This document shows positions 31,720 to 61,500 of a stretch of 64,000 nt of DNA, one piece after another. Made by a program: the position numbers and the translations under genes. The notes beneath the pieces are model-generated. The model saw only the letters and a program-made list of their open reading frames with translations. It did not search any database and was not told the origin of the DNA. This stretch comes from Chelatococcus sambhunathii. GTDB taxonomy: Bacteria > Pseudomonadota > Alphaproteobacteria > Rhizobiales > Methylopilaceae. The stretch is taken from positions 1 to 64,000 of the forward strand of contig JADBEO010000003.1 of the NCBI GenBank assembly GCA_031316315.1, in the 5' to 3' direction. How positions within the stretch are numbered: position 1 is the first letter of the stretch; the number at the start of each line of letters is the position of its first letter.

Positions 31720-32280
31720 CTAAGTTCTGGTTCTGGCACCCGCCGGCCCAGCCTCCTCGCCAGCCACTCGCACGCGGCGGCGCGCAATCCACGAGATCAG
31801 ACGGTTGTCGACTGCGTACGGGCCACTGCCGCCGATGACAAGCGATAGGATTCCAGCGACATAGAGCAGATCGGCTTCGTAGCCCGGCTGCCCAAACTGT
31901 GCGCCGGCCGGCGTCACGGCGAGCAGTTTCACCGAACTGAAACCGTAGGGCAGGTGAACCGTCAAAGCGGCGAACAGCAGGATCACGATCATCGGAAGCG
32001 CGAAAAGCGGGACCAGCGCCCCCAGTAGAAGAGAAAGCCCTCCGAATATCTCAAAGAAGATTACCACCAACGACATGAAGTGCGGCTCGGGAACGCCCAT
32101 TGCCGAGAGGATGCCGGCGAAATGGTCGGGGCCTCTCGCGAGCTTTGCAAATCCGTGAGCCGCGAAGCCGTATCCCATGATCAATCTGATGGGGATCGGC
32201 CACCACATTGAGAGGGCGGCGGAGAGTCCTCCGCTTCGAGTCGCTTGCGAGGTCGATTGGCGTTCGGCGCCGAACAGCAT
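31720..32280 (-). CDS. DoxX-family membrane protein
   Basis: A 186-residue integral membrane protein with the four-helix DoxX layout: PIRLIMGYGFAAHGFAKLAR, FMSLVVIFFEIFGGLSLLLG, FALPMIVILLFAALTVHL and DLLYVAGILSLVIGG. DoxX proteins are linked to thiosulfate:quinone oxidation in archaea and to redox stress in bacteria; the exact role here is unknown. The start at 32280 has AAGGGG nine bases upstream. It is divergent from the QseB-like regulator. Confidence 0.8.
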   Translation of the reverse strand: MLFGAERQSTSQATRSGGLSAALSMWWPIPIRLIMGYGFAAHGFAKLARGPDHFAGILSAMGVPEPHFMSLVVIFFEIFGGLSLLLGALVPLFALPMIVILLFAALTVHLPYGFSSVKLLAVTPAGAQFGQPGYEADLLYVAGILSLVIGGSGPYAVDNRLISWIARRRVRVAGEEAGPAGARTRT

Positions 32281-43751: not shown

Positions 43752-44741
43752 TTATAGCTGAGAAATCTCGTCGGCCAGCGGGTCTGAGATCACGAGCCCC
43801 CTGCGTTCGGCCTCCTGGCGCAAGGCCAGACGGCGCGCACCGGGAAGCCGCGCGCCGTCCTGGCTCTCGATCGCCTCCGCGAGGACCGCGAAGCGCTCCA
43901 CCGCGCTGGAGGACAGGGCGCCCGGCGATAGCGCGATGATGAGCTGGCCCGTGCCGGGCGGATCGCCTTTGTCGTCGAGGAAGGACGACGCCTCCCCGGC
44001 GTAACGCGAGCCGGTCAGGCCGGCCGCCAGAAGCTCGACCATCAGCGCGAGAGCGACCCCCTTGGCGTCTCCGAGCGGCGCCATCGTGCCCTCGAGCGCC
44101 GCGACCGGGTCGGTCGTCGGCTTGCCCTCGGCGTCGAGCGCCCATCCTTCCGGAATCGGTTCGCCGCGCTGCCTGGCGGCCAGGATGTTGCCGCGCGCGA
44201 CCTTGGAGAGCGACAAGTCGATCACGATCGGGGCCCGGCCCGGCAGCGGGCAGGCGAAGGCGATCGGGTTGGTGCCCAGCACCGCCGTGCGCCCGCCCCA
44301 CGGGGCCATGGCCGCCGGCGTGTTGGCGAAGAGCAACGCGACCTGGCCGGCGTTGGCGAGCGCCTCGACCGGCTGACCGGCCGCGCCGCAATGGTGCGAC
44401 CGGCGGATCGCGGCGGCTGCGATCCCCTGCTCGACCGCGACCTGCGGGAGCACGTCGACCGCGGCGTCGAGCGCCGGGTAGGCGAAGCCGTGCGCCGCGT
44501 CGATCGCGACGACGCCCGGCTTCGGGCGCGTGACGGCGGGCTTCGCTCTGCCGTCCACCTTGCCGGCGCGAAGCTGGCCGACATAGGTCGGAACGCGCGA
44601 CAGGCCGTGGCCCTTCAGGCCGTCCGCCTCCGCGCCGACCAGCGCGCGCGCGACGCTGGACGCCGCATCGGCCGAAGCGCCGTTGCGCGTCAGCGCGCCG
44701 GCGACGAGCTCCTCGGCGGCCGAGACAGAAAGCGTCGGCAT
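43752..44741 (-). CDS. comC: (R)-sulfolactate dehydrogenase-like (Ldh/ComC family)
   Basis: A 329-residue NAD(P)-dependent 2-hydroxyacid dehydrogenase of the malate/L-sulfolactate family: DGLKGHGLSRVPTYVGQLRA, AIRRSHHCGAAGQPVEALAN, GTNPIAFACPLPG and VIDLSLSKVARGNI. In sulfolactate-degrading bacteria the ComC member reduces sulfopyruvate to (R)-sulfolactate, the SuyAB substrate. The assignment rests on its neighbours slcC and suyAB; family alone would allow malate/lactate or other 2-hydroxyacid roles. It is the last gene of the suyAB-slcC-comC operon, 4 bases after slcC. Confidence 0.78.
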   Translation of the reverse strand: MPTLSVSAAEELVAGALTRNGASADAASSVARALVGAEADGLKGHGLSRVPTYVGQLRAGKVDGRAKPAVTRPKPGVVAIDAAHGFAYPALDAAVDVLPQVAVEQGIAAAAIRRSHHCGAAGQPVEALANAGQVALLFANTPAAMAPWGGRTAVLGTNPIAFACPLPGRAPIVIDLSLSKVARGNILAARQRGEPIPEGWALDAEGKPTTDPVAALEGTMAPLGDAKGVALALMVELLAAGLTGSRYAGEASSFLDDKGDPPGTGQLIIALSPGALSSSAVERFAVLAEAIESQDGARLPGARRLALRQEAERRGLVISDPLADEISQL

Positions 44742-44745
44742 GAGC

Positions 44746-45678
44746 TCAGGCCCTCCGAAGATGGGCCGCGACCGACCGCGCGGTCACGCCCGAGACGCGC
44801 ACGTTGGATTCGGCCGTCACGCCCGCGACATGCGGCGTCAGGATCAGGTTAGGGACGTCTTTGAACACGGCCGCGGCGTCCGCCGTGAGCGGCTCGGCGT
44901 CGAACACGTCGAGCGCGGCGCCGCCGAGCTTGCCTTCCTTCAGCGCCGCGGCGACCGCCGCCTCGTCGACGATCCCGCCGCGCGCGGCGTTGACGAGGAT
45001 CGCGTCGGGCTTCATGCGCAACAGCGCGTCGGCGCTGATCATGCCGCGGGTCTCGTCGGTCAGCGGCACGTGGAGGGACACGACGTCGGCGCGCGCCAGC
45101 ACGCTCTCGACCTCGAGGCGCTCGACGCCGGACCACGCCGGATCGGACGGATCGACGAAGGGGTCGTGCGCGACCACCGCCATCCCAAGCGCCGCCGCGC
45201 GTCTCGCGGTCTCGCGGGCGATCGAGCCGAAGCCGATGAGGCCGAGCGTCTTGCCGAAGATCTCGCGGCCGCCGGACAGCGCGTTGCGAGGCCAGGCGCC
45301 GCCTGTCATCGCGGGCGTCGCCGAATAGGCGGCGCGCAGCAGCACCATCGCGGTCCCGATGACATATTCGGCGACCGCGACGTCGTTCGCGCCGGTCGCG
45401 GGGAAGACTGCGATGTCGCGCGCCTTGCAGGCGGCGACGTCGATGTTGTCGAGGCCGACGCCGAGCCGTCCGATGCATTTGAGGTTCTTCGCCGCCTCCA
45501 GCAGCGCGCCGCGCGCCTGTGTCCGGTTGCGGACGATAAGCGCCTCCGCCCCCGCGACTTCGGCCGCGAGCCGCTCGGGCTGGTCGACGAGGTCGGGATC
45601 GTAGAGGACGTCGAAGCCGGCGAGGCCGTCGCGGATCGCGTCTTCGTCCATGAATTCGGAAATGACGATCTTGGCCAA
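44746..45678 (-). CDS. slcC: (S)-sulfolactate dehydrogenase-like (2-hydroxyacid dehydrogenase)
   Basis: A 310-residue D-2-hydroxyacid dehydrogenase-fold protein: IGRLGVGLDNIDVAACKARD, LGLIGFGSIARETARRAAAL (Rossmann loop), catalytic Arg in NAARGGIVDE, Glu in DVFDAEP and His in LTPHVAGVT. SlcC oxidises (S)-sulfolactate to sulfopyruvate, which ComC then reduces to the R form. The same fold includes phosphoglycerate dehydrogenase, but the operon context favours sulfolactate. Confidence 0.78.
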   Translation of the reverse strand: MAKIVISEFMDEDAIRDGLAGFDVLYDPDLVDQPERLAAEVAGAEALIVRNRTQARGALLEAAKNLKCIGRLGVGLDNIDVAACKARDIAVFPATGANDVAVAEYVIGTAMVLLRAAYSATPAMTGGAWPRNALSGGREIFGKTLGLIGFGSIARETARRAAALGMAVVAHDPFVDPSDPAWSGVERLEVESVLARADVVSLHVPLTDETRGMISADALLRMKPDAILVNAARGGIVDEAAVAAALKEGKLGGAALDVFDAEPLTADAAAVFKDVPNLILTPHVAGVTAESNVRVSGVTARSVAAHLRRA

Positions 45679-45700
45679 GAGGCTCTCACCCGTGAGAGTG

Positions 45701-45825
45701 CGTGCTTCGAGGCGCCTCAGGCCGGCGGCTTGAGGCGCCTCAGCATAAGGGACGTGGGGCGAATTGAGATCGAGCCCTCAACATTCCTCATGCTGAGGAG
45801 GCCCGAAGGGCCGTCTCGACGCACG
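45701..45825. repeat. Intergenic palindromic repeat
   Basis: The left end CGTGCTTCGAGGCG pairs with the right end CGTCTCGACGCACG. Inside are CCTCATGCTGAGGAGG and GCCCGAAGGGC, the typical sequence of a widespread alphaproteobacterial intergenic palindrome. It interrupts the suyB-slcC interval and may form a transcript-stabilising or attenuating structure. A small separate hairpin (CTCTCAC-CCG-TGAGAG) precedes it at 45683-45698. Confidence 0.7.
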
Positions 45826-45857
45826 CGAAGCGGCGTGTCCGGGCCGGCCCTGTGGGT

Positions 45858-47126
45858 TCAGGCGCTTCGATAGAGCTTGGTCATCACGAACTCGCGGTGG
45901 CCGAGCGCTTCCGCGGCGGTGAGACGGCCGTTCGCCGTGCGGATGATCATGTCGATCAGCGCGTCGCCGGCTTCCGGAATGGTCATCTCGCGGCGCAGGA
46001 CGCCCGTCACGTCGACGTCGACATGCTCGCCCATGGTGCGCACGGTGCGCGGGTTGCCCGTGATCTTGATGACCGGGACGATCGGGTTTCCGATGACGTT
46101 GCCCTGGCCGGTCGGGAAGGTGTGGACCACGTAGCCCGCAGCCGCCATCAGGGTCACGCACTCGGCCGCGGCCGAGGAGGTGTCCATGAAATAGAGCCCA
46201 GGGCCCTTGGCGGGCGCCTCGGCCGGCTGGAGCGCATCGATGTATCTGCACTCGTGGCCGATCTTCTCGAGATTGCCGAGCGCCTTTTCTTCGATGGTGG
46301 TCAGGCCGCCCTCGATGTTGCCCTTGGTCGGCTGGCTATCCGAAAGGTCGTCGGTCTTGTGGGCCTCGATGACGTCGTCCTGATAGGCCTTCCAGATCTT
46401 GTACCACTTCTCGGCGACCTCGGGAGACGCCGCGCGCTCCTTGCAGAGGTGCTCGGCGCCGGTGATTTCCGAGGTCTCTCCGAACACGCCGTAGATTCCG
46501 TGCGGGATGAGCTTGTCGTACATGTTGCCGACGGTCGGGCAGGAAGACAGGCCCGTCGTGGTGTCCGACTCGCCGCACTTGGTGGAGATCCAGAGGTCGG
46601 TGATCGGGCATTCCTCGCGCGGCAGCTCGGTCGCCCATTGCACATACTTCTTCGCGACGTAGCTCGCCTTCGCGATCGTCGCGATGTCGCCGTGCTGCTC
46701 GATGCCGAAGCCGACGACCGGCTTGCCGGTCTTGGCGATCCCGTCGACCACGCGCTTGGTCCACTGCTCCTCGATGCCGATGACGACGACGGCAGCCACG
46801 TTCGGGTTGGAGCCGATGCCGATCAGCGTGCGGAAATGGATCTCGAGATCCTCGCCGAACTGCAGGCGGCCATAGGCGTGCGGCAGGGCCATGACGCCCT
46901 TGATGTTGTTCGCGACCGCCTCGCAGGCGGCGTTCGACAGGTCGTCGAGCGGAAGCAGGACGACGTGGTTGCGCACGCCGACACGGCCGTTCTCACGGCG
47001 CCAGCCCATGAACGTCGCCTTGGCGAAGTCCGCGGAGGCGCGCTTCGAGAAGATCTGCGGGGTGTAGTGCTGGTCCGGAGCGCCGCCGACGAACGGGCTC
47101 TGACCCTGGGGCAGGACGTCAGCCAT
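45858..47126 (-). CDS. suyB: (R)-sulfolactate sulfo-lyase, large subunit
   Basis: A 422-residue UxaA/altronate dehydratase-family protein: [60 protein letters not shown] and [20 protein letters not shown]. With SuyA it cleaves (R)-sulfolactate to pyruvate and sulfite, probably with an iron site. The small subunit lies 12 bases upstream. Length and N-terminus match SuyB better than sugar-acid dehydratases, and the slcC/comC neighbours agree. Confidence 0.88.
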
Positions 47127-47138
47127 TGTCGTGTCTCC

Positions 47139-47450
47139 TCACCAGCGCTTCGTCTTCATGTTGTGGGTGTGGACGTGCTCGCCCTTGGCGATGTCCGCGA
47201 CGATCCTGCCGACGTCCTGGCCGTATTTGATGACCGTGTCGCCGGCCTTGAAATCGGTGAGAGCGACCTTGTGGCCGATCGGAATGTCGTTCTTCGCGAA
47301 CACGCCGAAGCTCTCGTTGTTCTCCGTGACCACGCCGAAGGCGTCGGTGTCTGCCTTCAGTCCCTCGATGACGGCGACGGCGACGTTGTCTTTCGGACTG
47401 TGGGCGAGAACGTGCGGAATGCGACCGTCCCCGTTCTTGGTGCTGCTCAT
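47139..47450 (-). CDS. suyA: (R)-sulfolactate sulfo-lyase, small subunit
   Basis: A 103-residue SAF-domain protein: IPHVLAHSPKDNVAVAVIEG, NNESFGVFAKNDIPIGHKVA and AGDTVIKYGQDVGRIVADIA, then GEHVHTHNMKTKRW, the standard end of UxaA/SuyA small subunits. ATG 47450 has GGAGG upstream and gives the usual size. An earlier ATG at 47504 would put the start against the operator at 47504-47519. First gene of the sulfolactate operon. Confidence 0.88.
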   Translation of the reverse strand: MSSTKNGDGRIPHVLAHSPKDNVAVAVIEGLKADTDAFGVVTENNESFGVFAKNDIPIGHKVALTDFKAGDTVIKYGQDVGRIVADIAKGEHVHTHNMKTKRW

Positions 47451-47503
47451 TCTGCGGCGCTCCTCCCTCGCGGCGACGGTCGGGCCAGGCTCGACGTCGC
47501 TCA

Positions 47504-47519
47504 TGTCTTGTATAAGACA
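47504..47519. promoter_or_regulatory. Operator-like palindrome upstream of suyA
   Basis: TGTCTTGTATAAGACA has 6-bp inverted half-sites and is followed directly by another TAAGACA copy (47520-47526). It belongs to the TCTTATATAAGA set also found at 47594, 54540 and 55587. Confidence 0.65.
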
Positions 47520-47593
47520 TAAGACACCGACAGGGTCAATCGCTCCGTCCGAGCCATGCGGAATTTGTCGAAGCCGATGCCGTCGCCCACTGG

Positions 47594-47605
47594 TCTTATA
47601 TAAGA
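47594..47605. promoter_or_regulatory. Operator-like palindrome in the suyA/tctC divergent region
   Basis: TCTTATATAAGA is a perfect 12-bp palindrome about 120 bases upstream of the TctC-type gene, in an AT-rich patch (to about 47620) that likely contains the plus-strand promoter. Confidence 0.65.
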
Positions 47606-47726
47606 GATATGATACCTTTTATCCGCGGACATAAGGCGACGACGTAGATCGCCGCGCGTCGCGCAGCGTCACGCCAGGCGCTCAAGACCCGGCGGACGCC
47701 AAGAGGAAACCCCTAGTGGAGGCTTC

Positions 47727-48707
47727 ATGTCGTCGTTCATCAAACGCGCCGCGGCCGTCGCCGCCGGCCTCGTATTGTCCATCGCGCCGGTTGTCGCCGA
47801 GGACTATCCGGCCAGGCCGATCACGCTCGTGGTTCCCTATTCCGCCGGCGGTCCGAGCGACCTCATCGGCCGCCTCGTCGGCGATTCGATGTCGAAGACC
47901 CTCGGTCAGCAGATCGTCGTCGAGAACGTGACGGGCGCCGGCGGCACGCTCGGCGCGTCCCGCGTCGCGCGCAGCGACCCGGACGGCTACACGCTGCTCA
48001 TCCACCACATCGCGCTGCCGGCGAGCGCCGCGCTCTACGACAACCTGAACTACGACACCGCCACCGGCTTCGAGCCCCTCGGCCTGATCAACACCGGTCC
48101 GATGGTCGTCGTCTCGCGGCCCAACTACGAGGCCGCCGACGCGGCGGCGCTGATCGCCAAGATCAAGGCGGACGGCGGCAAGACGACCGTCGGCAACGCC
48201 GGCATCGGCTCGAACGCGCATCTCTGCGCGAGCCTGCTCCAGCGCGCGACCGGCGCGAAGTTCACCCAGGTGCCCTATCGCGGCACCGGCCCCGCGATGA
48301 CGGACCTCATCGCCGGCCAGATCGACATGATGTGCGACCAGTCGACCAATGCGGTGGCGCCGGTCCAGACACACAAGATCAAGGGCTTCGCGGTCTCGTC
48401 CAAGGAGCGGCTGCCGGCGCTGAAGGACCTTCCGACGCTCGACGAGGCGGGCCTCACGGGTTTCGAGTTCGTCGTCTGGCACGGCCTCTACGCCCCGAAG
48501 GGAACGCCGAAGGAGATCCTCGCCAAGCTTCACGACGCGCTGCTCGTCGCGCTGAAGGACGAGAAGATCGTGGCGAAGTTCGCCGAGGTCGGCACCACCG
48601 TGTTCCCCGAGGCCGAGCGCACGCCCGAGGCGCACAAGGCGCGGCTCGAGAAGGAGCTCGCGGTCTGGAAGAAGGTGTTTCCGGAGCCCGCCTCGAAGTC
48701 GAACTGA
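47727..48707 (+). CDS. TctC/Bug-family solute-binding protein
   Basis: A 326-residue periplasmic binding protein. The signal FIKRAAAVAAGLVLSIAPVV is followed by YPARPITLVVPYSAGGPSDL, VENVTGAGGTLGASRVARSD, VPYRGTGPAMTDLIAGQIDM and PKGTPKEILAKLHDALLVAL, the tripartite tricarboxylate transporter receptor pattern. It probably captures the sulfonate (SlcH-like role). No TctA/TctB membrane genes are in the window. It is divergent from suyA with two shared operators, and ends in a strong hairpin terminator. Confidence 0.85.
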   Translation: MSSFIKRAAAVAAGLVLSIAPVVAEDYPARPITLVVPYSAGGPSDLIGRLVGDSMSKTLGQQIVVENVTGAGGTLGASRVARSDPDGYTLLIHHIALPASAALYDNLNYDTATGFEPLGLINTGPMVVVSRPNYEAADAAALIAKIKADGGKTTVGNAGIGSNAHLCASLLQRATGAKFTQVPYRGTGPAMTDLIAGQIDMMCDQSTNAVAPVQTHKIKGFAVSSKERLPALKDLPTLDEAGLTGFEFVVWHGLYAPKGTPKEILAKLHDALLVALKDEKIVAKFAEVGTTVFPEAERTPEAHKARLEKELAVWKKVFPEPASKSN

Positions 48708-48711
48708 CATG

Positions 48712-48749
48712 TCGAGGGCCGTACCGGCTTCGGCTGGGACGGCCCTCGA
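48712..48749 (+). terminator. Strong hairpin after the TctC-type gene
   Basis: TCGAGGGCCGT and ACGGCCCTCGA form a perfect 11-bp stem around a 16-base loop, starting 5 bases past the stop codon. It probably acts on both converging transcripts. Confidence 0.7.
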
Positions 48750-48839
48750 AGCGTCGCTTCAGCTGCCGCTCTCGCCGCGAACCTTCGGGGCGCCGCGGAG
48801 CATCCCGGTCATGGCTTGTCGTCCGCGCTTGCGCGCGGG

Positions 48840-50573
48840 TCAGGCGGCTCGGTCGACCAGCGAGGAACCCGGCGCGACGCGGGTGAAGGAGACGGGATCG
48901 GTCATGACCTCGACGACGCCGTCCTCGCGGCCGCGCACGACCGTGTAGCGAGAGGTCACGAGGTCGGACGTCTCCGGAAAATCCTCGCGGAAATGCGCGC
49001 CGCGGCTGTCGGTGCGGGCGATCGCCGCCGCGCAGATCGCGCGGCTGACCGAGACGAGGCTTTCGAGATTGAGCCGGTCGGTCCAGGTGAGGTCGTACCG
49101 CCGGTCGCCGTCCGGAGCGCCGGAGCGCTCGACGGCTTCGGCGAGTTCGGCGAGCCTCTCCTGCGCCCGATCGAGGCCTGTCTTGTCGCGCAGGACGCCG
49201 ACGTCGGACCACATCGTTTCGTAGAGCGCTTCTCGGATCGCGGGCAGGTCCCTGTGCGGCCGTCCGAGCGGGCCGAACGCCCGCGCCAGGCCCCGTTCAA
49301 GCGCTGCGCGATCCGGATCGGCGTGCGCTCCCTCGCGCGCGGCCATGGTCGCCATCGCCCTGCCGGCGACGCCGCCGAACACGGTCGAGTTCGCGACGCC
49401 GTTGCCGCCGAGCCGGTTCGCGCCGTGCACGCCGCCGGTGTCCTCGCCCGCGGCGTAGAGCCGGGGCAGTTCGGTCGAACAGTCGCCGTTGAAGGCGACG
49501 CCTCCCATCATGTAGTGGGCGGTCGGGATCACCTCGACGCGTCCTGCCGCCAGGTCGAAGCCGCAGTCGGCGCAGCGTTCGACCATGCCCTTGAAGCTCT
49601 TGCGGACCTTGTCCGGGCCCAGATGGCTCATCGAGATGTAGACCCCGCCGTTCGCGGTTCCGTAGCCGTCGCGGATGCGCCGGATGATGGACCGGCTGAC
49701 GATGTCGCGCGTCGCGCGCTCGTTGCGCGGATCGTAGAGATGCATGAAGCGCTCGCCGTCGCGGTCGAGCAGATAGCCGCCCGCGCCGCGAAGCCCCTCT
49801 TCCAGAACCGTGCCGGTCATGCGGGTGTCGGGCCCGGCAAGCAGCCCGGTCGGGTGGAACTGCACCATCTCCATGTCGCGCAGCGGCAGCCCGGCGCGCA
49901 GCGCCATGGCGAGCCCATCGCACGACTTGTCGCCGGAGGGCGTGTGGAACTTGTACATGGTCGGCCCGCCGCCGGTCGCGAGCAGCGTCGCCTTCGCCTG
50001 CACGAAGACCGGCTCGCCCGAACGCATGTCGAGCATCAGAACGCCCGCGAGCCCCGAGCCGTCGGCGGCCGGGATCAGCTCCAGCGCGCGATGGTCCTCC
50101 ATTCGGCGCACGTCGCGCCGCCAGACCTGCTCCATCAGCCGGTTGATGATCTCGATGCCGGTCAGATCCCCCTTGTGCACCGTGCGGTCGAAGGTCTGGC
50201 CGGCGAAGGCCTTCTGGTGGACCGTGCCGTCGGGATTGCGGTCGAAGAAGCAGCCGAGTTCGCTCTCGAGCTCGCGGATGCGCACCTGCGCTTCCGTCAC
50301 CAGCGTCCAGGCGAGGTCCTGGTCGTTGAGCCACTTGCCGCCTTCGATGGTGTCCATGAAGTGGCGCTCGACGCTGTCGCCCGGCGCGAGCGCGACGTTG
50401 TAGCCGCCCTGCACCATGCGGGTGCAGCCGCACTTGCCGAGCAATCCCTTCACCGCGACGGTGACGTCGAGGTCCGGCGCGGTCTTCTTCGCGTGGAGCG
50501 CAGCGAACAGCCCTGCCCCGCCGGAGCCGAGGATCAGGACGTCGGTCTCGACCTGCCGGACGGAAGGGGTCAT
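48840..50573 (-). CDS. SdhA/FrdA-like flavoprotein subunit
   Basis: A 577-residue flavoprotein. The FAD site is VLILGSGGAGL (about 13-22). Substrate-site blocks of the succinate dehydrogenase/fumarate reductase family are visible: MEMVQFHPTGLL, VLEEGLRGAGG, NERATRDIVSR, PTAHYMMGG and HGANRLGGNG. The residue that normally carries covalent FAD (His in SHTxxxxGG) is Cys50 in CGCTRMVQGG. The Thr of the usual TEG motif is Glu. It is the last gene of the operon, overlapping the hydratase beta stop (ATGA). Substrate may be a sulfonate analogue of succinate (inference). Confidence 0.82.
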   Translation of the reverse strand: MTPSVRQVETDVLILGSGGAGLFAALHAKKTAPDLDVTVAVKGLLGKCGCTRMVQGGYNVALAPGDSVERHFMDTIEGGKWLNDQDLAWTLVTEAQVRIRELESELGCFFDRNPDGTVHQKAFAGQTFDRTVHKGDLTGIEIINRLMEQVWRRDVRRMEDHRALELIPAADGSGLAGVLMLDMRSGEPVFVQAKATLLATGGGPTMYKFHTPSGDKSCDGLAMALRAGLPLRDMEMVQFHPTGLLAGPDTRMTGTVLEEGLRGAGGYLLDRDGERFMHLYDPRNERATRDIVSRSIIRRIRDGYGTANGGVYISMSHLGPDKVRKSFKGMVERCADCGFDLAAGRVEVIPTAHYMMGGVAFNGDCSTELPRLYAAGEDTGGVHGANRLGGNGVANSTVFGGVAGRAMATMAAREGAHADPDRAALERGLARAFGPLGRPHRDLPAIREALYETMWSDVGVLRDKTGLDRAQERLAELAEAVERSGAPDGDRRYDLTWTDRLNLESLVSVSRAICAAAIARTDSRGAHFREDFPETSDLVTSRYTVVRGREDGVVEVMTDPVSFTRVAPGSSLVDRAA

Positions 50574-51181
50574 TCGCCGGCCCCGATGCTGGCGAGCACC
50601 GCGTCGCGGCGGCTCGCGACGTCGTCGCGCACCGTCTCGAACAGCGAGCCGCCGTGGCTGTCCATGCCGACGAGCAGCGGGCCGAGGTCGCGAATCCTGA
50701 ACTTCCAGAGGCTCTCGGGGTGCAGGTCGTCCATGTCGACGTCCTCGATCCGCTCGATCCAGGTGGTTTCCAGCGCCGCCGCACCTCCGACGATGGCGAG
50801 ATAGGCGCCGCCGAGATCCTTGAAGGCGGCGGAGGTGTCCGCCCCCATGCCGCCCTTGCCGATGATGAGCCGCACGCCCTCGCGCTCCATCAGCTGGCGG
50901 GTGAAGCGCTCCATGCGCTGCGAGGTCGTGGTGCCGATGCAGAACGGCGCGTAGCCGACCGGCGCCTCTTCGGACCTGTCGACGCGACGGACGTTGGGCG
51001 CGGTGTGGATCACCGCATGGCCGTCGAGGTCGAGCCGGGTTTCCCGGCCGCGGTCGAACATGTGGATCAGCGTCGCGTCGCGGATGCCGAACAGCGTCTT
51101 CCGCAGCGTGACGGTGTCGCCGATCTGCAGCTCGCGGACCTTCGCGGCGTCGATCGGCATGTCGAGGACATGGTGGGCCAT
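50570..51181 (-). CDS. Class I fumarase/tartrate dehydratase-like beta subunit
   Basis: A 203-residue protein matching the C-terminal domain of class I fumarases: MPIDAAKVRELQIGDTVTLR, FCIGTTTSQRMERFTRQLME, RLIIGKGGMGADTSAAFKDL, GAYLAIVGGAAALETTWIER and LLVGMDSHGGSLFE. The KGG motif is preserved. With the alpha subunit it should add water across a double bond of a dicarboxylate-like acid. The size is also close to TtdB, so tartrate dehydratase is an alternative. Confidence 0.85.
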   Translation of the reverse strand: MAHHVLDMPIDAAKVRELQIGDTVTLRKTLFGIRDATLIHMFDRGRETRLDLDGHAVIHTAPNVRRVDRSEEAPVGYAPFCIGTTTSQRMERFTRQLMEREGVRLIIGKGGMGADTSAAFKDLGGAYLAIVGGAAALETTWIERIEDVDMDDLHPESLWKFRIRDLGPLLVGMDSHGGSLFETVRDDVASRRDAVLASIGAGE

Positions 51182-51194
51182 GAGCGGTCCTCCT

Positions 51195-52067
51195 TCAGCT
51201 GAAGGCGATGCCGCCCGGCGTGATCGTCGCGAGCGCGCGGCGGGCGGAATGGCACTGGATGTTCACGGCGACCGGGTTCTGAGTGATGTGGGTCGCGGCG
51301 ATCTCGACATGGACGGCGAAGCTGGTGGACCGCCCGCCGAGGCCCTGCGGCCCGACGCCGAGCTCGTTCACCGCCTTCGACAGCTCCGCCTCGATCTTCG
51401 CCCCTTCAGGATCCGAGCAGACCGTTCCGAGCGGCCTCGTCGCGGCGATCTTTGCAAGGTGCATGCACATGTCGGAGGTGCCGCCGAGGCCGACGCCGAC
51501 GATCGTCGGCGGGCAGACGCGGCCGCCGAGTTCGATCACGCGGTCGATCACGAAGCGCTTGGCTGCGCTGACGCCGTCGGAGGGCAGCAGCATCTTCAGG
51601 AACGAGCCGTTTTCGGAGCCCGATCCCTTCGGGATCATCTCGATGCCGACCGTCTCTTCCCGTTCGTCGAAATCGACATGAACGATCGGCACGCGCACGC
51701 CGCACGAGGTCTGGTCGTTCTGTCGTGTGATCGGGTGCACGACCGAAGAGCGGAGCGAGTTCTCCTTGGTGGAACGCTCGCAGCCGCGGCGGATCGCGGC
51801 CTTCAGCTCCGCGCCGTCGAAGCTGACGTTCCGGCCGATCGTGATGTTGTAGATCGGGATGCCGGTGTCCTGGCACAGGATGTTGTTGGTCCGCTCGGCG
51901 ACGGCGACGTTCTCGACCATCACGCCGAGCACCGCCTTCGCGGTCTCGCCGGTCTCGGCGCCGACGAGGCGCTTGAAGCCGTCCTTGATGTCCGGCGGCA
52001 GGATCTTCAGGGCGCGGATATAGAGGTCCGAGCAGACCCTCTCGACCTCGGCCATGTCCAGCTGCAT
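51195..52067 (-). CDS. Class I fumarase/tartrate dehydratase-like alpha subunit
   Basis: A 290-residue protein of the class I fumarase alpha/N-terminal family. The three cluster-ligand candidates are Cys in NNILCQDTGIPIYN, Cys in NDQTSCGVRVPIVH or ELGGRVCPPTIVG, and Cys in GGTSDMCMHLAK. NPVAVNIQCHSARRA is near the C-terminus. It needs a 4Fe-4S cluster to hydrate a trans double bond. ATG 52067 follows AGGAGGATCA. It lies 13 bases before the beta gene and 11 after the exporter gene. Confidence 0.85.
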   Translation of the reverse strand: MQLDMAEVERVCSDLYIRALKILPPDIKDGFKRLVGAETGETAKAVLGVMVENVAVAERTNNILCQDTGIPIYNITIGRNVSFDGAELKAAIRRGCERSTKENSLRSSVVHPITRQNDQTSCGVRVPIVHVDFDEREETVGIEMIPKGSGSENGSFLKMLLPSDGVSAAKRFVIDRVIELGGRVCPPTIVGVGLGGTSDMCMHLAKIAATRPLGTVCSDPEGAKIEAELSKAVNELGVGPQGLGGRSTSFAVHVEIAATHITQNPVAVNIQCHSARRALATITPGGIAFS

Positions 52068-52078
52068 CGTTGATCCTC

Positions 52079-52819
52079 CTAGATCAGGAGCATGAGCCCG
52101 GACGCGAGCAGCATGCCGGCCAGGAACTTGCGGAACAGCCGCTCGTCGAGACGGCTGAAGATCGCCATTCCCGCCCAGCCGCCGAGAGCGAGCGCCGGCA
52201 GCGAAAGCAGGAACAGCCAGGCCCCCCGGCTGTCGAACGCCACCGCGCCGATCAGCGCGATGGAGAGGAAGTTCGCGAATAGGATGTAGGGCTGATAGAC
52301 GGCGCGCGCGGTCGACTTCGGCCAGCCGCGCAGTTGCGACCAGATCGTCGGCAGCACGCCGGAATAGCCCCCTATGCCGCCGAGCACCCCGCCCGCGAAG
52401 CCCACCGCCGCGTCGGCCTTGCGCCCGCCGCCGTTCACGCGCGGCAGCGTCGGGGCCAGGATCGCATAGGTCCCGTAGATCACGAGGCCGAGGCCGATGG
52501 CGATCTTCAGCTTCGGCACGTCGACGCTCGACAGCACCGCGACCCCGAGCGGCACGCCGATCGCGGCGCCCAGGATGAAGGGGGCGAGGCGGCCGCGGTC
52601 GAACTCCTTGCGGAACGGCCAGATGGTCACGAACTGCAGAAGCGTGCCGCAGGTCACGGTCAGGGCCGTGGTCAGCAGCGGATCGAAGGCGTGCAGCCAG
52701 ATCGACGAGGCCGCGAGCGCGAAGGCGAAGCCGGCTCCGCCCGAGGCCACGCCGCCCACGAAGGCCCCCGCCCACAGGAACGCCAGCGTCGAGAGCGGGA
52801 AGCCGGCGATCACGCTCAT
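52079..52819 (-). CDS. TauE/SafE-family sulfite exporter-like protein
   Basis: A 246-residue membrane protein with about eight helices in two repeats: LSTLAFLWAGAFVGGVASGG, PFILGAAIGVPLGVAVLSSV, VGFAGGVLGGIGGYSGVLPT and PALALGGWAGMAIFSRLDER. TauE/SafE members export sulfite or related anions during sulfonate degradation. Its ATG overlaps the stop of the upstream SDH membrane subunit, so it is translated as part of that operon. Specificity is inferred from context. Confidence 0.85.
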   Translation of the reverse strand: MSVIAGFPLSTLAFLWAGAFVGGVASGGAGFAFALAASSIWLHAFDPLLTTALTVTCGTLLQFVTIWPFRKEFDRGRLAPFILGAAIGVPLGVAVLSSVDVPKLKIAIGLGLVIYGTYAILAPTLPRVNGGGRKADAAVGFAGGVLGGIGGYSGVLPTIWSQLRGWPKSTARAVYQPYILFANFLSIALIGAVAFDSRGAWLFLLSLPALALGGWAGMAIFSRLDERLFRKFLAGMLLASGLMLLI

Positions 52820-53175
52820 GCGGCGCTCATCAGGAAGACGAGCCCGACCGCGACCCCGAACGCGCAGGCGAACGAGACCGTGACGGCTGTGCGGTCGCGC
52901 ATGCCGAGGAACTCGATCGCCAGCACCCGCATCCCGAGCGCCATATGCAGAGCGAGCGCCGACACGAGGCCCCATTCGGCGACCTTGACGACTGGGTTTT
53001 CGGTGAGCGCAAGGAAGCTCTGCAGCCGATCCGCGCCGGAAAGCGCCGTACCGAGCGCGATGAAATGCAGCGGCAGAAAGATCGCGAGGGCGACGCCGGA
53101 AATGCGGTGAAGCGCGGCGGCCAGAAATCCCGGCTTGCGGCGCGACGCGCGGAAGGTTTGCGACGCGATCGTCAT
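52816..53175 (-). CDS. SDH-like membrane anchor subunit (cytochrome b-type)
   Basis: A 119-residue three-helix protein: RRKPGFLAAALHRISGVALA carries the HRxSG signature of SdhC, and VSALALHMALGMRVLAIEFL the haem-ligand-like His. The last helix is ACAFGVAVGLVFLM. ATG 53175 is chosen to give the usual small size. It overlaps both neighbours by 4 bases. It should bind quinone/haem for the flavoprotein complex. Confidence 0.78.
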   Translation of the reverse strand: MTIASQTFRASRRKPGFLAAALHRISGVALAIFLPLHFIALGTALSGADRLQSFLALTENPVVKVAEWGLVSALALHMALGMRVLAIEFLGMRDRTAVTVSFACAFGVAVGLVFLMSAA

Positions 53176-53501
53176 GCCGAGAACACCGCGTAGGCCGCGC
53201 GCAGGCCGAGCGTCAGGATGACGGCCGAGAAGGCGAGCATGGCGAGGTCGAGCGAGCGGCCGCGCCAGAGCGTCCATTCGCGCAGCACGCTGCGCAGGCC
53301 GATGGGCGCGTGGACCGCGGCCGCGACCACGAAGATCGCGTAGAACAGCAGGAAACCGACATTGCCGGCCGTGCGTCCCAGGATCTCGCCGGCTGTCAGC
53401 CCTCCTTTCACGGCGATCATGACGGTGGCGAGATGGACCAGCACCGCGAGGCCGAGCACCGCCGCGGTGACCCGCTGGGCAAGGTAGAGACCGGCGCTCA
53501 C
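53172..53501 (-). CDS. SDH-like second membrane anchor subunit
   Basis: A 109-residue three-helix protein starting at GTG 53501, which overlaps the stop of the iron-sulfur gene. LYLAQRVTAAVLGLAVLVHL and AAAVHAPIGLRSVLREW (HxxxGLRxVLxEW) match membrane anchors of succinate dehydrogenases/fumarate reductases. It pairs with 52816-53175. Confidence 0.75.
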   Translation of the reverse strand: MSAGLYLAQRVTAAVLGLAVLVHLATVMIAVKGGLTAGEILGRTAGNVGFLLFYAIFVVAAAVHAPIGLRSVLREWTLWRGRSLDLAMLAFSAVILTLGLRAAYAVFSA

Positions 53502-54244
53502 GACCGCCGCCTCCAGGCCCGCTTGGCGGTCTCGCGCTTCAGCCCGGCGATCGCGAATGTCGGCCCGAGGCTCTTCGGGCAGAACTCCGTGCAGCTCATG
53601 TGGCTGTGGCAGGAGTGGCAGCCCACGTCGCCGGAGATGGCGCCCATGCGCGCCTTCTGGCCCTTGTCGCGGACGTCGTTGACGAGCGTCCAGGCGCGGT
53701 TGAGCGCCGCCGGACCGAGATAGTCCGGGTTCCAGGAGACGACGTCGCAGGCGGAGTAGCAGACGCCGCAGTTGATGCACTCGACGCCGGCGTCGGCGGC
53801 GCGGCGTTCAGGACTGTCCGGCTTCACGACGGCGAAGTCGTCGGCGGGCGCCGGTCCCGGCTCGAAGAAACCTTTCGCGTCGCGCCACTTCGTGAAGAAC
53901 GCCTCCATGTCGACCGCAAGGTCCTTCACGATCGGCAGATTGCGCAGCGGCTCGAGCGTCAGGACGCCGTCCTGCCCGGTCTTGGCGACGCGGGTGCGGC
54001 AGGTCCAGCGTGGGCGCCCGTTCACGATCATGGCGCATGAGCCGCACATGCCGACGCGGCAGGCGAAGCGGTAGGCGAGCGAAGGGTCGTGCTCGCGCTG
54101 GATCTCGGTCACGACGTCGAGGACCGTCTGGTTCGGCCTGCGGGCGACCTCGAACGTCTGGAACGCGCCGTTCGCCGCGCCCCGCCAGACCCGCACAACA
54201 AGGCGTCCGGCTCCGATATCGGCCGTCGCAGCTTCAACGCTCAT
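53498..54244 (-). CDS. SdhB/FrdB-like iron-sulfur subunit
   Basis: A 248-residue electron-transfer subunit. The 2Fe-2S ligands are in CRVGMCGSCAMIVNGRPRWT(C). The second half has CINCGVCYSACD and CHSCHSHMSCTEFCPKSLGP, fitting the 4Fe-4S and 3Fe-4S clusters, and FLGP-like YLGPAALNRAWTLVND. It links the flavoprotein to the membrane anchors. It is the second gene of the operon, after the small 49-residue gene. Confidence 0.87.
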   Translation of the reverse strand: MSVEAATADIGAGRLVVRVWRGAANGAFQTFEVARRPNQTVLDVVTEIQREHDPSLAYRFACRVGMCGSCAMIVNGRPRWTCRTRVAKTGQDGVLTLEPLRNLPIVKDLAVDMEAFFTKWRDAKGFFEPGPAPADDFAVVKPDSPERRAADAGVECINCGVCYSACDVVSWNPDYLGPAALNRAWTLVNDVRDKGQKARMGAISGDVGCHSCHSHMSCTEFCPKSLGPTFAIAGLKRETAKRAWRRRS

Positions 54245-54310
54245 GATCATTCCCCGGGATGCGCGGGCTTCGCGGCGGTCGGGTCGGGACTTCGCGTGCG
54301 CCGATGCCTC

Positions 54311-54460
54311 TCAGCTGCGGGACCGATTCTGGATCGCAGGGAAGAACCGGTTCTCCCAGTCGGCGGCGTTCGCCTTCACCAGACCGGCGCGGTTCATATC
54401 GTCGCGATGGACCAGCATCTTCTTCGGCGTACGCAAACTCCTCGAGCGAACCCAGCCCAT
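54311..54460 (-). CDS. 49-residue basic protein leading the SDH/fumarase operon
   Basis: MGWVRSRSLRTPKKMLVHRD, then DMNRAGLVKANAADWENRFF and PAIQNRSRS. AGGGAG lies six bases before the ATG at 54460, an almost ideal ribosome-binding site. It is too short for family assignment. Its place between the operator at 54540 and the iron-sulfur gene makes it the likely first cistron. It could be a small subunit, a leader, or chance; coding is supported only by the SD and composition. Confidence 0.45.
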   Translation of the reverse strand: MGWVRSRSLRTPKKMLVHRDDMNRAGLVKANAADWENRFFPAIQNRSRS

Positions 54461-54539
54461 CAACATCTCCCTGAGGCTCGGGCTCTGTGCAGTCGGCCCG
54501 TTGGCCGGCCGAGGCTACTGCGGAGGCACCCAATGTCAA

Positions 54540-54564
54540 ATGTCTTAGATCATATATAAGACAT
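54540..54564. promoter_or_regulatory. Operator-like palindrome upstream of the SDH/fumarase operon
   Basis: ATGTCTTA and TAAGACAT are perfect 8-bp inverted half-sites around a 9-bp AT-rich spacer, about 80 bases upstream of the 49-residue gene. It shares TCTTA...TAAGA with the sites at 47504, 47594 and 55587. Confidence 0.65.
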
Positions 54565-54671: not shown

Positions 54672-55439
54672 TCAGCGGAGCTCTGAAAGATAATGCAGCT
54701 GGTCCGTGAGACAGACGCTGACGCGCCATTCGACTGGCTGGCGCTCGAGCGAAAGCGCGAGCCGGTCGATCTTGAGCGCGGGCGTTCCCGCGGGCGCGCC
54801 CAGGGCGACGGCATCGACCTCCGAGATGGCGACCGCCTTCAGCTGTTCGCGCGTGCTCGCGATCGTAATTCCGAAATGCATGGCGTAGAGGCCATAAAGA
54901 TTGTTCGGGATCTCCATCCCGGCGAAGCCGGGGAACATCGCCTCGGGCAGGGTGATGTCCTCGACGATGGCCGGCCTGCCGGCGATCGAACGAAGTCGGC
55001 GGATGCGGATGACGCGCGCGTCCTTCGAGAGACCCAGCGCCTGTCGCTCACGGGCGTTCGACCTGCCCTGCGAAAGCGAAAGCACGGTGCTGACGGGAAA
55101 GCTGCGCGCGCCGTCGTCGCCGACGAGCTTGAAGAACTGGAACATGATCCGTTCTTCGTCGTGGCGGGCGACGAAGGTGCCCCGGCCCTGGCGGCGGACC
55201 ACGAGATTCTCGGCCGCCATGGCATCGAGCGCCTTGCGCACCGTGCCCTGGCTGACGCCGAGCTCGGCCGCGAGCTGAATCTCGCTCGGCAGCGGCTCGC
55301 CCGGGCTCCACACGCCGTCGACGAGGCGCCTGATCAACCGATCGCGCACCTGCCGATAGAGCGGGCGAAAGCCGAGCGCTTCCGCCTCCGCCGGGCCAGC
55401 GGCGGGCTCAAGAACCTTCTGCTCGGTCGACGACGCCAT
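54672..55439 (-). CDS. GntR-family (HutC/UTRA) repressor
   Basis: A 255-residue regulator. The N-terminal GntR winged helix is PLYRQVRDRLIRRLVDGVWS with GEPLPSEIQLAAELGVSQGT and VRKALDAMAAENLVVRRQGR. The C-terminal UTRA effector domain has FQFFKLVGDDGARSFP, RIRRLRSIAGRPAIVEDITL and LKIDRLALSLERQPVEWRVS. It probably controls the sulfonate genes through the TCTTATATAAGA palindromes, one in front of its own gene. Confidence 0.88.
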   Translation of the reverse strand: MASSTEQKVLEPAAGPAEAEALGFRPLYRQVRDRLIRRLVDGVWSPGEPLPSEIQLAAELGVSQGTVRKALDAMAAENLVVRRQGRGTFVARHDEERIMFQFFKLVGDDGARSFPVSTVLSLSQGRSNARERQALGLSKDARVIRIRRLRSIAGRPAIVEDITLPEAMFPGFAGMEIPNNLYGLYAMHFGITIASTREQLKAVAISEVDAVALGAPAGTPALKIDRLALSLERQPVEWRVSVCLTDQLHYLSELR

Positions 55440-55586: not shown

Positions 55587-55616
55587 TTCCAACTTATATC
55601 TTATATAGAATTGGAA
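55587..55616. promoter_or_regulatory. Operator-like palindrome upstream of gntR
   Basis: TTCCAA and TTGGAA flank an AT-rich core with TCTTATATAGA, an imperfect copy of the TCTTATATAAGA palindrome. It lies about 150 bases upstream of the gntR start and suggests autoregulation. Confidence 0.5.
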
Positions 55617-58524: not shown

Positions 58525-61500
58525 CTATGGCGCCTCGATCGGTCCGAGGTCGGGCCGATCCGGACGCTGAACGCCGTTCAGGTCAGTCGGAGCGTCGGGC
58601 GAAAGGGCGCCGGCCGCCAGAAAAGGCGCGCGACCGCTCGGCGCAAAGTCGTTCGGGTCGTGGTTGAGCGCCTTCGGGAACTTCCTGAACCAGCTCGCGG
58701 AGAACTCGCGCTTCACGGTCTCCGCCGGTGACGGCGAGCGCCCTTCGATCCGGCCGGACGCGTAGAAGTTCGAGCGGAAGACGTTGTCGACGGAGGTCTC
58801 GTCCACCTCCATGAGCAGCGCCGAGGGGTTCGGCGCGCCGTCCTGCGTCACGCCGACGACGACGTTGTTGGCGAACTCGTTGCGGCTCGCGTGATTGATG
58901 AACTGAACGGCGTGCCGCCCCGTCGAGATGAACAGGTTGTGCAGGATCTTGTTGTCGCTGGCGCCGAGCTTCGGATTGTCGGTCTCCTGCCAGAACGACG
59001 CGTTGTGGCGTGGGTGAAAGCCCATCACGTTGTTGCGGACGACGCTGCGGCGCAGGCTCGTGAAGTTCGGGCCCGACGCCTTGCCGTGGTGGAAGTAGTT
59101 CGACTCGATCAGGAAATAGTCGCTCGCGCCCTGCCCGCCTTCGCCGGTCCCCGCATAGGCGTCGCATCTCGGATCGTCGAACGGCACGCCGACGTCCTTG
59201 CAGGTCGAGGCGGGGTCTGGATTGATCTGGAAATCGCTGCTGAGGTTGCCCCATGTCTCGTTGAAACGGACGATGGTCCAGTCGCCGCCGTTGCTGAGAT
59301 ACATGCCGTGCCCGTCGCCCTTTTTGGCGCCGTAGGCGACGTTTCCTTCCCAGACCGCCCAGTCGGCTGCGCCTGAGAAGAAGGGATCGCGCTCCTGGTC
59401 GTGACCGCGGCAGTTGAGCACCGCGACCCCGGCGATGTGCTCGCTCGCCGCATAGCCGCCTTCGGCCGCGCGGACGCCGTAATCGCCGCCGATCAGTTCG
59501 AACCCGTCGACCGCGACATGGTCGGCCTTTTCGAGGTTGATGCAGCTGCGGCGGCCGCTTCCGCAGCACCGGATCGAGACGCCGAGAGATTGGTCCTCGT
59601 TCCGTTCGCCGAACAGCACGATCGGCGCGTCGTAGGTTCCGCTGTTCTCCCTCTCGAAGCTCAGGCAGGTCTCATAGGTCCCGCGAACGAAATGGAGCTT
59701 GGTTCCGGGCTTAGCCGCCGCGACCGCGTCCTTCGGCGACATCGGCGTCTCGCGCGACGAACCATCCCCTCCGCCGACCGGACCGACATAGATCGTCCGG
59801 GCCGGGCGCCAGTCGCGGTCGGTGTAGTAGCGGTTGAACTTCTCCGGGAAGCCGAAGAACTGGCCGCCGCGCGCGACCGGACCTGTGGGCGGCGAAGGCC
59901 GCCCTTCAGGCGCCGCCATCTCGGCTGTAGGCGGGGCGACGACGCCCGGCGCCGGAGGCTCGCTCGCCGGCCCAGCCGCCTCCTTCGGCCCTGAGGTGGG
60001 TTGGGGAGCGGGATCGCCCACGCGTGCGGGTTCGGAGACGGCGCCTGCGCCCAGCCGCGCGAGATAGGCGCGCGCCAGATCGGCGTAGAAGCCTCGCGGG
60101 TAGTGCGCGAGGAACGCGTTCCAGGCCTCGACCGTGCCGAGCCCCCGGGCGTCGTCGAAAGCCTGCTTGGCGGTGACGTCGGCCTCCTGCGCCGCGGCGA
60201 CCGGCGTCGCCTGCGGAGGGCTCGCAGGCGGCGGCGCCTCGGCGGTCGCCTTCTCGGGCGCCGCGGCGGCCTGCTCCGGCGTACCGCTTTCCTCGGTCGC
60301 GGCGGCGGTCTCTTCGGGCGCCGCCTCCTCGGGTTGCGCCGGGGCCGGTGGGGCGCTTTCAGCGACCGAGGATGCGGCGTCCGGGGCCGCCTCCGCCGCA
60401 TCGGCGATCCCAAACGCGCCGAGCGGGACGCCCGCGACGATCGCGGGGCTGCCGGGGCGGAGGCGGAAGTCGCCGGCGTCGGGGGCGACGAAGAGCGGAT
60501 CTTGGGGCGCGACCATTCCCTTCCCGAACGTGGTCGGCAGTCCGTAGTCGCGAACCGATGTCTGCGCCATCGAGCTCGACACGTTGATCTTGGCCGGGCC
60601 GCACTTGCCGCTGCACGCCGCGGTAAAGTCCAGGTTCTCGCCGTTGCCCCAGAACAGCGAGTTGGTCACCTCGGAGCGGTCGGCCGATTTCGGGGTTTCG
60701 ACGTCGATCCGCAATCCGACGCCCGGCTCCGCGCAATCGACGCCCAGCGCCCGCACGTTGGTGACGCGGTCGAAGCTCGCGACCGTCGGCCCGGAGGTGT
60801 CGGAGCCGCTGTCGACGTAAGCGTTGCCGCCGCAGTTTCCGTCGTAGAGCTCGTATTCAGAGACGCATTTCGCGCCGCCGTCGCAGAAGAAGCCTCCGCC
60901 AGCGTTACCGGCGCGGTTTCTGCGGTAGACGTTCCGGCTCATCGTGGCGGTCGTCGGCTGTCCGCCCTCGGGATAGGCGCCGACATAGAGCCCGCCCCCC
61001 CATTGCGTGACGGTGTTGGCGACGAAGAGATTGCCGGTGACGATCAGCCTGTTCGTCTGCAGGTAAAGCGCGCCGCCATGGGAGGAGTCCGGCTCGGTGC
61101 CGGCGTTCTCCTCGATCAGATTGTTCTCGATCCTGACCGTGTTCTTGTTGGAATCGTCGTTGAGCGCCCCTGCCCCGCCGCGGCCGCACGAGTTTTTGCG
61201 GAAGACGTTGCCGCGGATCGAGCCCGCGACGTTGTTGAACATGAAGCCTGCGCCGACCAGCGACTGGTCCGCGCAGACGTTGTCGTGGATGTGGTTGTTG
61301 GTCAGATCGAAGCGCTGCGGCTCGTAATAGTCCCGGAAGACGGCCTGCGAGTAGCCGGTGATCTCGAAACCGTCGATCGCGGTCAGCTGATCGCCCTTGG
61401 GGCCGGGATCGGCGATGCGGATGAACGACCCGCCCTTTCCCTGCGCCCGGCTGACGTGAAGCGCGGAATCGCGGACCTTGAAGCCGCGCTGAAATCCGCC

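Follow-up and report, generated by a model that had tools for sequence, protein, structure and literature searches.

Why should a bacterium keep an extra set of succinate dehydrogenase (SDH) and fumarase genes beside genes for splitting sulfolactate? The question is raised by a 64,000-nucleotide stretch of Chelatococcus sambhunathii DNA (GenBank assembly GCA_031316315.1, contig JADBEO010000003.1, positions 1 to 64,000; hereafter the window). Here a minus-strand operon of the order sdhB-sdhC-sdhD-tauE-fumA-fumB-sdhA (48840-54250) adjoins suyAB-slcC-comC (43752-47504). If a sulfonate takes the place of one succinate carboxylate, the two citric-acid-cycle steps catalysed by these enzymes give 3-sulfopropionate, sulfoacrylate and sulfolactate in turn. 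We propose that this operon supplies the front end of a pathway for 3-sulfopropionate catabolism, and put the probability of this reading at about 0.7. The original prediction, drawn from the locus itself, had suggested SDH and fumarase chemistry on a C3 sulfonate feeding SuyAB; it now has computational support from gene co-occurrence, synteny, a shared operator, a distinct SdhA clade and the recurrence of the module, together with SuyAB, in another phylum.

The genes of the locus

We use SdhA* for the clade of the window flavoprotein, and FumA* and FumB* for the hydratase subunits that accompany it. The two minus-strand units comprise the following genes.

53498..54250, minus strand: sdhB-like iron-sulfur subunit (TIGR00384, 197.8 bits, cut-off 88; Fer2_3)
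53172..53501, minus strand: small SDH membrane anchor (Sdh_cyt 24.5 bits, just below the Pfam cut-off of 25.8; TIGR02968 29.2 bits, cut-off 41.8)
52816..53175, minus strand: SDH cytochrome b556-type anchor (Sdh_cyt 49.2 bits; TIGR02970 57.8 bits, cut-off 52.3)
52079..52819, minus strand: TauE/SafE-type exporter, within the SDH/fumarase operon (PF01925, 79.2 bits)
51195..52067, minus strand: class I fumarase-type alpha subunit (type 1), predicted sulfoacrylate hydratase (PF05681, 283.8 bits)
50570..51181, minus strand: class I fumarase-type beta subunit (Fumerase_C), predicted sulfoacrylate hydratase (PF05683, 105.4 bits)
48840..50573, minus strand: SdhA* flavoprotein, predicted 3-sulfopropionate dehydrogenase (FAD_binding_2, 255.9 bits; a clade of its own)
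47139..47504, minus strand: SuyA-like small subunit (weak SAF match; adjoins suyB in relatives)
45858..47126, minus strand: SuyB-like sulfolactate sulfo-lyase large subunit (GD_AH_C, 271.7 bits)
44746..45678, minus strand: SlcC-like 2-hydroxyacid dehydrogenase (2-Hacid_dh_C; named by context)
43752..44741, minus strand: ComC-like Ldh_2 dehydrogenase (Ldh_2, 326.2 bits)

Open frames stand at each of these places, and their Pfam and NCBIfam families agree with the names first given to them. The operon is as compact as had been described: four of the six junctions in the SDH/fumarase block are 4-base overlaps, and the other two are gaps of 11 and 13 bases. The TauE/SafE gene does lie inside this block, between the anchors and the fumarase alpha gene. 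The features of complex II include an iron-sulfur subunit of the three-cluster type (by the dhsB model and cysteine motifs read by eye) and two membrane anchors, one of them just below cut-off.

The operon is not the citric-acid-cycle set, as the original prediction of a dedicated SDH and fumarase had implied. Elsewhere in the genome, a second SdhA homologue (35% identical to the window protein) stands beside another SdhB on contig C9, and a FumC above its curated cut-off is encoded on contig C45. A third SdhA homologue, on contig C23, is taken as NadB-like from its motif. Apart from the window fumA, the genome has no class I alpha match.

The families and order of the SuyAB pair and the SlcC- and ComC-type dehydrogenases fit a sulfolactate pathway. 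In the family model search SuyA and SuyB matched no curated SuyAB model. The window SuyB is 68% identical to a large UxaA-type protein encoded after hpsN-hpsO-MFS-dehydrogenase in Cupriavidus pinatubonensis HN-2, a gene order that matches the hpsRNOUPsuyAB cluster as described for strain JMP134 (PMC11382572). The names SlcC and ComC rest on context, since the best match of ComC, the L-sulfolactate dehydrogenase model NF040650, reaches 186 bits, far under the cut-off of 500, and SlcC matches general 2-hydroxyacid dehydrogenase models only.

A separate flavoprotein clade and an altered predicted hydratase

SdhA* is distinct from the flavoprotein of the citric acid cycle. In a tree of 47 rows, the 41 SdhA* rows were separated with 100/100 support; some outgroup branches are very long and their placement is unsure. 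SDH flavoproteins have a His that links flavin adenine dinucleotide (FAD), and His and Arg residues that serve the substrate. Counted on distinct sequences, with duplicate loci removed, the column of the FAD-linking His is occupied by Cys in 103 of the 104 SdhA* sequences with at least 60% identity (one is unreadable) and in 12/12 at 45-60%; seven more distant homologues have His (three), Ser (one) or an unreadable column (three). The TEG motif is replaced by EEG in 104/104 and 12/12 of the same two groups, and is present as TEG in five of the seven distant ones. SdhA* lacks both the covalent-FAD His and the TEG of complex II. The SDH active-site motifs QFHPTG, TRD, PTAHY and NRLG are preserved in nearly all rows. 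Set beside SDH and fumarate reductase (PDB 1nek, 1kf6), the SdhA* complex has the same fold family, His/Arg motifs, iron-sulfur subunit and membrane anchors, but differs in its Cys, its EEG and its own clade.

FumA*B* has the alpha and beta domains of class I fumarases (PF05681, PF05683) and keeps the CQDTG, CPP and QCH motifs, which supply the three cysteine ligands of the cluster. Like PDB 7xky, which we take to be the two-subunit class I fumarase of Methanocaldococcus jannaschii, it consists of alpha and beta subunits with the Cys and CQDTG motifs; it differs in the beta subunit, where RDAT(L/Q) stands for RDEAH and GTTT for GPTT, so that the RDxxH and GPTT motifs are missing. Among distinct FumB* sequences at 60% identity or more, GTTT is found in 78/78 and RDAT or RDLS in 77/78 (one unreadable).

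Linkage to sulfolactate cleavage

Does the module travel with sulfolactate lyase? Co-occurrence had been named as an in silico check. Among 385 alphaproteobacterial genomes, 32 have SdhA* and 34 SuyB; both occur together in 20, against 2.8 expected (Fisher p 1.6e-16; 1.1e-15 if the window genome is left out), and these 20 carry 12 family labels. This is the genomic tie that a route from 3-sulfopropionate to sulfolactate would leave.

A FumA-like gene (two-subunit-type alpha) is present in 32/32 SdhA* genomes, within 10 kb of sdhA* in 28 of them. These hydratases fall into two types: type 1 (at least 68% identity) in 10 genomes and type 2 (33-38%), with motifs that differ from class I fumarase, in 22. 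SuyB accompanies type 1 in 9/10 genomes and type 2 in 11/22. Two genomes, G002 and G060, have a type 2-like FumA and no SdhA*. Further sets yielded SdhA* in 11 of 398 Pseudomonadota genomes, and 11 matches at E 1e-90 in 247 genomes of Desulfobacterota (the phylum of genome G385), 10 of them 50-53% identical. Of 72,556 plasmid records, 18 carry SdhA*, 13 SuyB and 6 both.

The linkage is conserved. Scanning genome contigs with FumA confirmed at least 548 relatives, of which the best 80 were fetched (73 at 50% identity or more, 7 lower); the counts therefore lean towards close relatives. Near fumA in the 73 we found SdhA* in 69, SdhB* in 67, FumB* in 71, TauE in 49, SuyB (at least 60% identical to that of the window) in 23, SlcC in 22, ComC in 20, GntR in 21, a sulfonate-type ABC part in 31, a thiamine pyrophosphate (TPP) enzyme in 28, and TauE or SuyB in 54. 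None of those neighbour genes was found near fumA in the 7 relatives below 50%. In the 40 well-flanked relatives (at least 20 kb), TauE is nearby in 31, SuyB in 15 and either in 32.

Both units share a palindromic operator, as had been noticed in the window. Searched with up to two mismatches, TCTTATNTAAGA has 11 matches there against 1.10 expected, a count that 0 of 100 shuffles attained. Nine of these matches form four places, listed here with the regulator gene; the other two lie elsewhere in the window, at 32049 and 36699, with two mismatches each.

47506..47517, no strand: operator-like palindrome before suyA (1 mismatch)
47594..47605, no strand: operator palindrome TCTTATATAAGA between suyA and tctC (exact)
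54543..54561, no strand: operator-like palindrome before the sdhB operon (1-2 mismatches)
55599..55610, no strand: operator-like palindrome before gntR (2 mismatches)
54672..55439, minus strand: GntR-UTRA regulator, predicted to act on both units (PF00392 and PF07702; operator-like site upstream at 55599)

The GntR-UTRA gene was absent from the original prediction. The sites are conserved: with up to one mismatch, TCTTATATAAGA occurs 42 times in 26 of 116 loci (2.0 Mb), or, once the five loci that overlap others are set aside, as 41 sites in 25 of 111. About 0.27 would be expected for the 116 loci, and the best of 30 permuted palindromes reached 5. Every site lies within 450 bases upstream of a marker gene (suyA, tauE, ABC ATPase and others): before sdhB itself in L050 and L080, at slcC/gntR in L014 and at tctC/tctB on Paracoccus pTAV3. 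The ABC-side site of L023 has a sulfite-dehydrogenase-like gene nearby as well, 229 bases away.

Two further features of the window bear on transport.

47727..48707, plus strand: TctC-type binding protein, possibly for sulfonate uptake (PF03401, 191.9 bits)
54311..54466, minus strand: 51-codon remnant, C-terminal, of an SsuA-like sulfonate-binding protein (in Methylobacterium radiotolerans, the binding protein with the matching C-terminus is encoded by a gene that overlaps sdhB)

The tctC gene, also missing from the original prediction, lies between the two minus-strand units. The 51-codon remnant occupies the place where relatives hold a whole SsuA-like gene. A conserved small protein upstream of sdhB was considered for this frame and rejected, as it matches only the C-terminus of sulfonate-binding proteins. 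The transport role may have been handed over to the tctC product. Downstream, at 58525-61818, is a 1097-amino-acid frame with repeat-rich halves.

SdhA* relatives carry sulfite oxidase or dehydrogenase, sulfate exporters and SsuA-type binding proteins, which we count in favour of 3-sulfopropionate. M. radiotolerans pMRAD01 has the SsuA-like gene overlapping sdhB, the SDH/fumarase block, a TPP enzyme, a second binding protein, TauE, SuyAB, DctA, SlcC, ComC and GntR. On Paracoccus versutus pTAV3, about 27 kb hold a type 2 block, YeiH, TauE, ComC, SlcC, TctCBA, an HpsPON-like gene order (one gene of which is annotated histidinol dehydrogenase), SuyAB and a sulfate exporter. Sulfite oxidase, a sulfate exporter and MmsA lie near the block in Pseudomonas MPC6; M. 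nodulans has two sulfite-dehydrogenase-type genes and a sulfate exporter. Pseudorhizobium NT-26 combines TauE, a sulfate exporter and TRAP with a sulfolactaldehyde-reductase-like protein (324 bits, cut-off 348) and a succinate-semialdehyde dehydrogenase (690.7 bits, cut-off 646), the predicted pair being as expected for making 3-sulfopropionate. Rhodococcus RHA1 pRHL1 encodes TauE, an aldehyde dehydrogenase, SdhB*, SdhA*, FumA and FumB, with SuyB about 19 kb off.

The Desulfobacterota locus L153 (GC content 59.5%) has, in a row, TauE, two permease frames (the one tested is CitMHS), SdhA*, SdhC, SdhB-Rieske, cytochrome b, FumA, FumB, SuyA and SuyB. The SdhB-Rieske fusion (L153:10929-12227) and a cytochrome b with a cytochrome c domain (L153:12228-13670) stand inside this cluster. 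A second locus from this phylum, L154, has SdhA*, SdhB and TauE; no SuyB match was found in its genome. Haloarchaea have SdhA*, SdhB*, TauE, a UxaA pair that resembles SuyB at only 32-34%, and, where fumarase would stand, an ArgH-type lyase. On haloarchaeal plasmids this lyase, which matches ArgH and XcbC, adjoins SdhA* (L098:10299-11801, L100:10296-11798); its further chain matches are presumably EDDS-lyase-type.

Other neighbours were noted in passing. An aconitase X (AcnX) gene lies near the SdhA* block in seven loci (L056, L072, L101, L107, L108, L111 and L119; L072 is the same stretch as L108), with a DUF126 gene beside it in those inspected. The TPP enzyme after sdhA in a Methylobacterium locus (L093:13739-15364) is of the acetolactate-synthase superfamily and falls under every curated cut-off shown. 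A chromate-transporter-like protein (ChrA-type, named by eye) is encoded near fumA in 15 loci with no SuyB of at least 60% nearby (L046, L047, L049, L053, L058, L059, L060, L062, L063, L064, L065, L071, L079, L080 and L085).

The proposed route and its rivals

The route we predict, in substrate, direction and stereochemistry, would begin with a membrane-bound, quinone-linked SdhA*BCD that turns 3-sulfopropionate into 3-sulfoacrylate by oxidation. Hydration to 3-sulfolactate would then fall to FumA*B*, a hydratase of the [4Fe-4S] class I fumarase type, and SuyAB would split (R)-sulfolactate into pyruvate and sulfite. TauE may export sulfite or a sulfonate. GntR would act on the TCTTATATAAGA palindromes and switch both units together.

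The original prediction had the hydratase product pass through SlcC and ComC, and this we correct. SuyAB is reported to cleave the (R) form, and SlcC and ComC to interconvert both enantiomers (PMC10507020). With the geometry of L-malate, the product should already be (R)-sulfolactate, since C3, bearing sulfur, outranks C1; SlcC and ComC therefore need not act on it, and would instead serve external (S)-sulfolactate or an (S) hydratase product. That type 1 hydratase nearly always occurs with SuyB fits (R)-sulfolactate being handed to SuyAB. The type 2 enzyme may yield (S)-sulfolactate, or add water at C3 with spontaneous loss of sulfite.

Several points weigh against this proposal. No SuyB match was found in 12 of the 32 SdhA* genomes; Xsc occurs in 14 of the 32 and in six of those 12, and the other six have no Xsc either. 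The same-genus genome G714 has no SdhA* match. In 8 of the 40 well-flanked relatives neither TauE nor SuyB is nearby (two of these, L021 and L031, carry a SoxC-like gene). No gene for forming 3-sulfopropionate was found near the window. If the hydratase yields (R)-sulfolactate, SlcC and ComC are superfluous for this route. A Cys where SDH has its FAD-linking His is unexpected in an oxidising enzyme and could favour reduction. Finally, the support is computational, the roles of SdhA*, FumA*B* and SuyAB being predicted ones.

Could the module oxidise and hydrate something else (sulfosuccinate, methylsuccinate/mesaconate, tartrate or some other sulfonate), with SuyAB a co-regulated unit that has its own substrate? 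The fumarase-like subunits are also picked up by tartrate dehydratase models, the TctC family has many substrates, some loci have no SuyAB nearby, and AcnX/DUF126 or a TPP enzyme stands near some relatives. The co-occurrence with SuyB, the shared operator and the sulfite-handling genes speak against it, and by chemical reasoning 3-sulfopropionate alone reaches the SuyAB substrate directly by these two steps. We consider another substrate unlikely.

The families are, after all, those of SDH and class I fumarase, and the SDH His and Arg motifs are preserved, as an ordinary spare set for succinate and fumarate would have them. Against this stand the separate clade with its altered motifs, the sulfonate context and operator, the co-occurrence, and the SDH and FumC encoded elsewhere. 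We have set aside an ordinary second citric-acid-cycle set on these grounds and give a spare one very little credence.

The reactions might also run in reverse, as an electron sink in which sulfolactate loses water and the resulting sulfoacrylate is reduced to 3-sulfopropionate. His mutants of Escherichia coli fumarate reductase lose succinate oxidation; the missing FAD-linking His resembles such reductase-only mutants, and the module is present in Desulfobacterota. SuyAB, TauE and the sulfite dehydrogenases of aerobic relatives nevertheless point to oxidation and desulfonation, and sulfonate uptake systems accompany the module. Reversal is very improbable.

Direct desulfonation, with water added at C3 and the alpha-hydroxysulfonate falling apart into sulfite and malonate semialdehyde, which MmsA would convert to acetyl-CoA, concerns type 2 loci and not the window. 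In Pseudomonas MPC6 the gene after fumB, overlapping it by 1 base, encodes a CoA-acylating methylmalonate-semialdehyde dehydrogenase (695.3 bits, cut-off 448.5); sulfite oxidase and a sulfate exporter are nearby, and no UxaA-type gene is listed for the 25.6 kb stretch. On Cupriavidus P-10 pMTS1 a 61% relative lies about 3 kb from the block, on the other strand. Type 2 motifs, moreover, differ from those of class I fumarase. With two loci only, and a window hydratase of type 1, the type found with SuyB in nine of ten genomes, we give this idea the slimmest of chances.

We return, then, to 3-sulfopropionate catabolism and what is known of it. The original prediction knew of no described pathway. 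The metabolites had in fact been reported: homotaurine degradation in Roseovarius nubinhibens ISM passes through 3-sulfopropionate, sulfoacrylate and sulfolactate (Jutta Mayer, Konstanz thesis, as cited in PMC11489063), the chain we propose here, and the citing passage names no genes. The genetic part of the claim stands as far as open papers go: in the titles and abstracts of openly licensed PMC papers we found no SDH- or fumarase-type genes assigned to 3-sulfopropionate. What is new is the gene assignment of the front end; the SuyAB/SlcC/ComC tail is known. The pathway described for Chromohalobacter, Paracoccus and Taurinivorans (PMC12421959, PMC10507020) has the same tail and TTT-type transport family as the window, but there sulfolactate comes from 2,3-dihydroxypropane-1-sulfonate (DHPS), sulfosugars or outside, and the window adds the SDH/fumarase front end. 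In Taurinivorans muris (43.6% GC) the lyase genes belong to an hpsN-dctPQM2-suyAB cluster (PMC10507020). HpfXYZ of Enterococcus gilvus likewise applies succinate-type enzymes to 3-sulfopropionate, but makes it (PMC11489063), whereas the window module would consume it. Sulfoacrylate is a known bacterial metabolite, formed in coenzyme M synthesis by the ArgH homologue XcbC1 (PMC8727900). XcbC1 is biosynthetic; the haloarchaeal lyase scores 260 bits with the XcbC model, under its cut-off of 575, and higher, at 323 bits and above cut-off, with ArgH.

Much more tentatively, SdhA* may be a family of 3-sulfopropionate oxidoreductases that spans Alpha-, Beta- and Gammaproteobacteria, Actinomycetota, Desulfobacterota and haloarchaea. 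Its flavin would be unusual and perhaps linked through cysteine, and three interchangeable sulfoacrylate hydratases would serve it: the two class I fumarase types and the ArgH-type lyase. One hydratase type may remove the sulfonate itself, by hydrating C3 to give malonate semialdehyde. In Desulfobacterota, the family might supply the route so far lacking for the anaerobic respiration with 3-sulfopropionate that is seen in Bilophila. This joint reading is possible, but on balance doubtful.

Homotaurine is one source of 3-sulfopropionate, and the fermentation of DHPS derived from sulfoquinovose is another; the compound supports H2S formation by Bilophila (PMC11489063, PMC12890257, PMC9594981). 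Bilophila wadsworthia grows with it (PMC11489063) by a mechanism called unclear (PMC12890257), and its degradation has been described as needing investigation (PMC9594981). The module offers concrete candidate genes for 3-sulfopropionate degradation in aerobes and in at least one Desulfobacterota lineage. Our analysis suggests that, in loci of this kind, the labels FAD-binding protein, succinate dehydrogenase and fumarate hydratase are wrong for many genes. Enzymes of the citric acid cycle would here be seen re-tailored for a sulfonate, and an open link of the organic sulfur cycle becomes testable.

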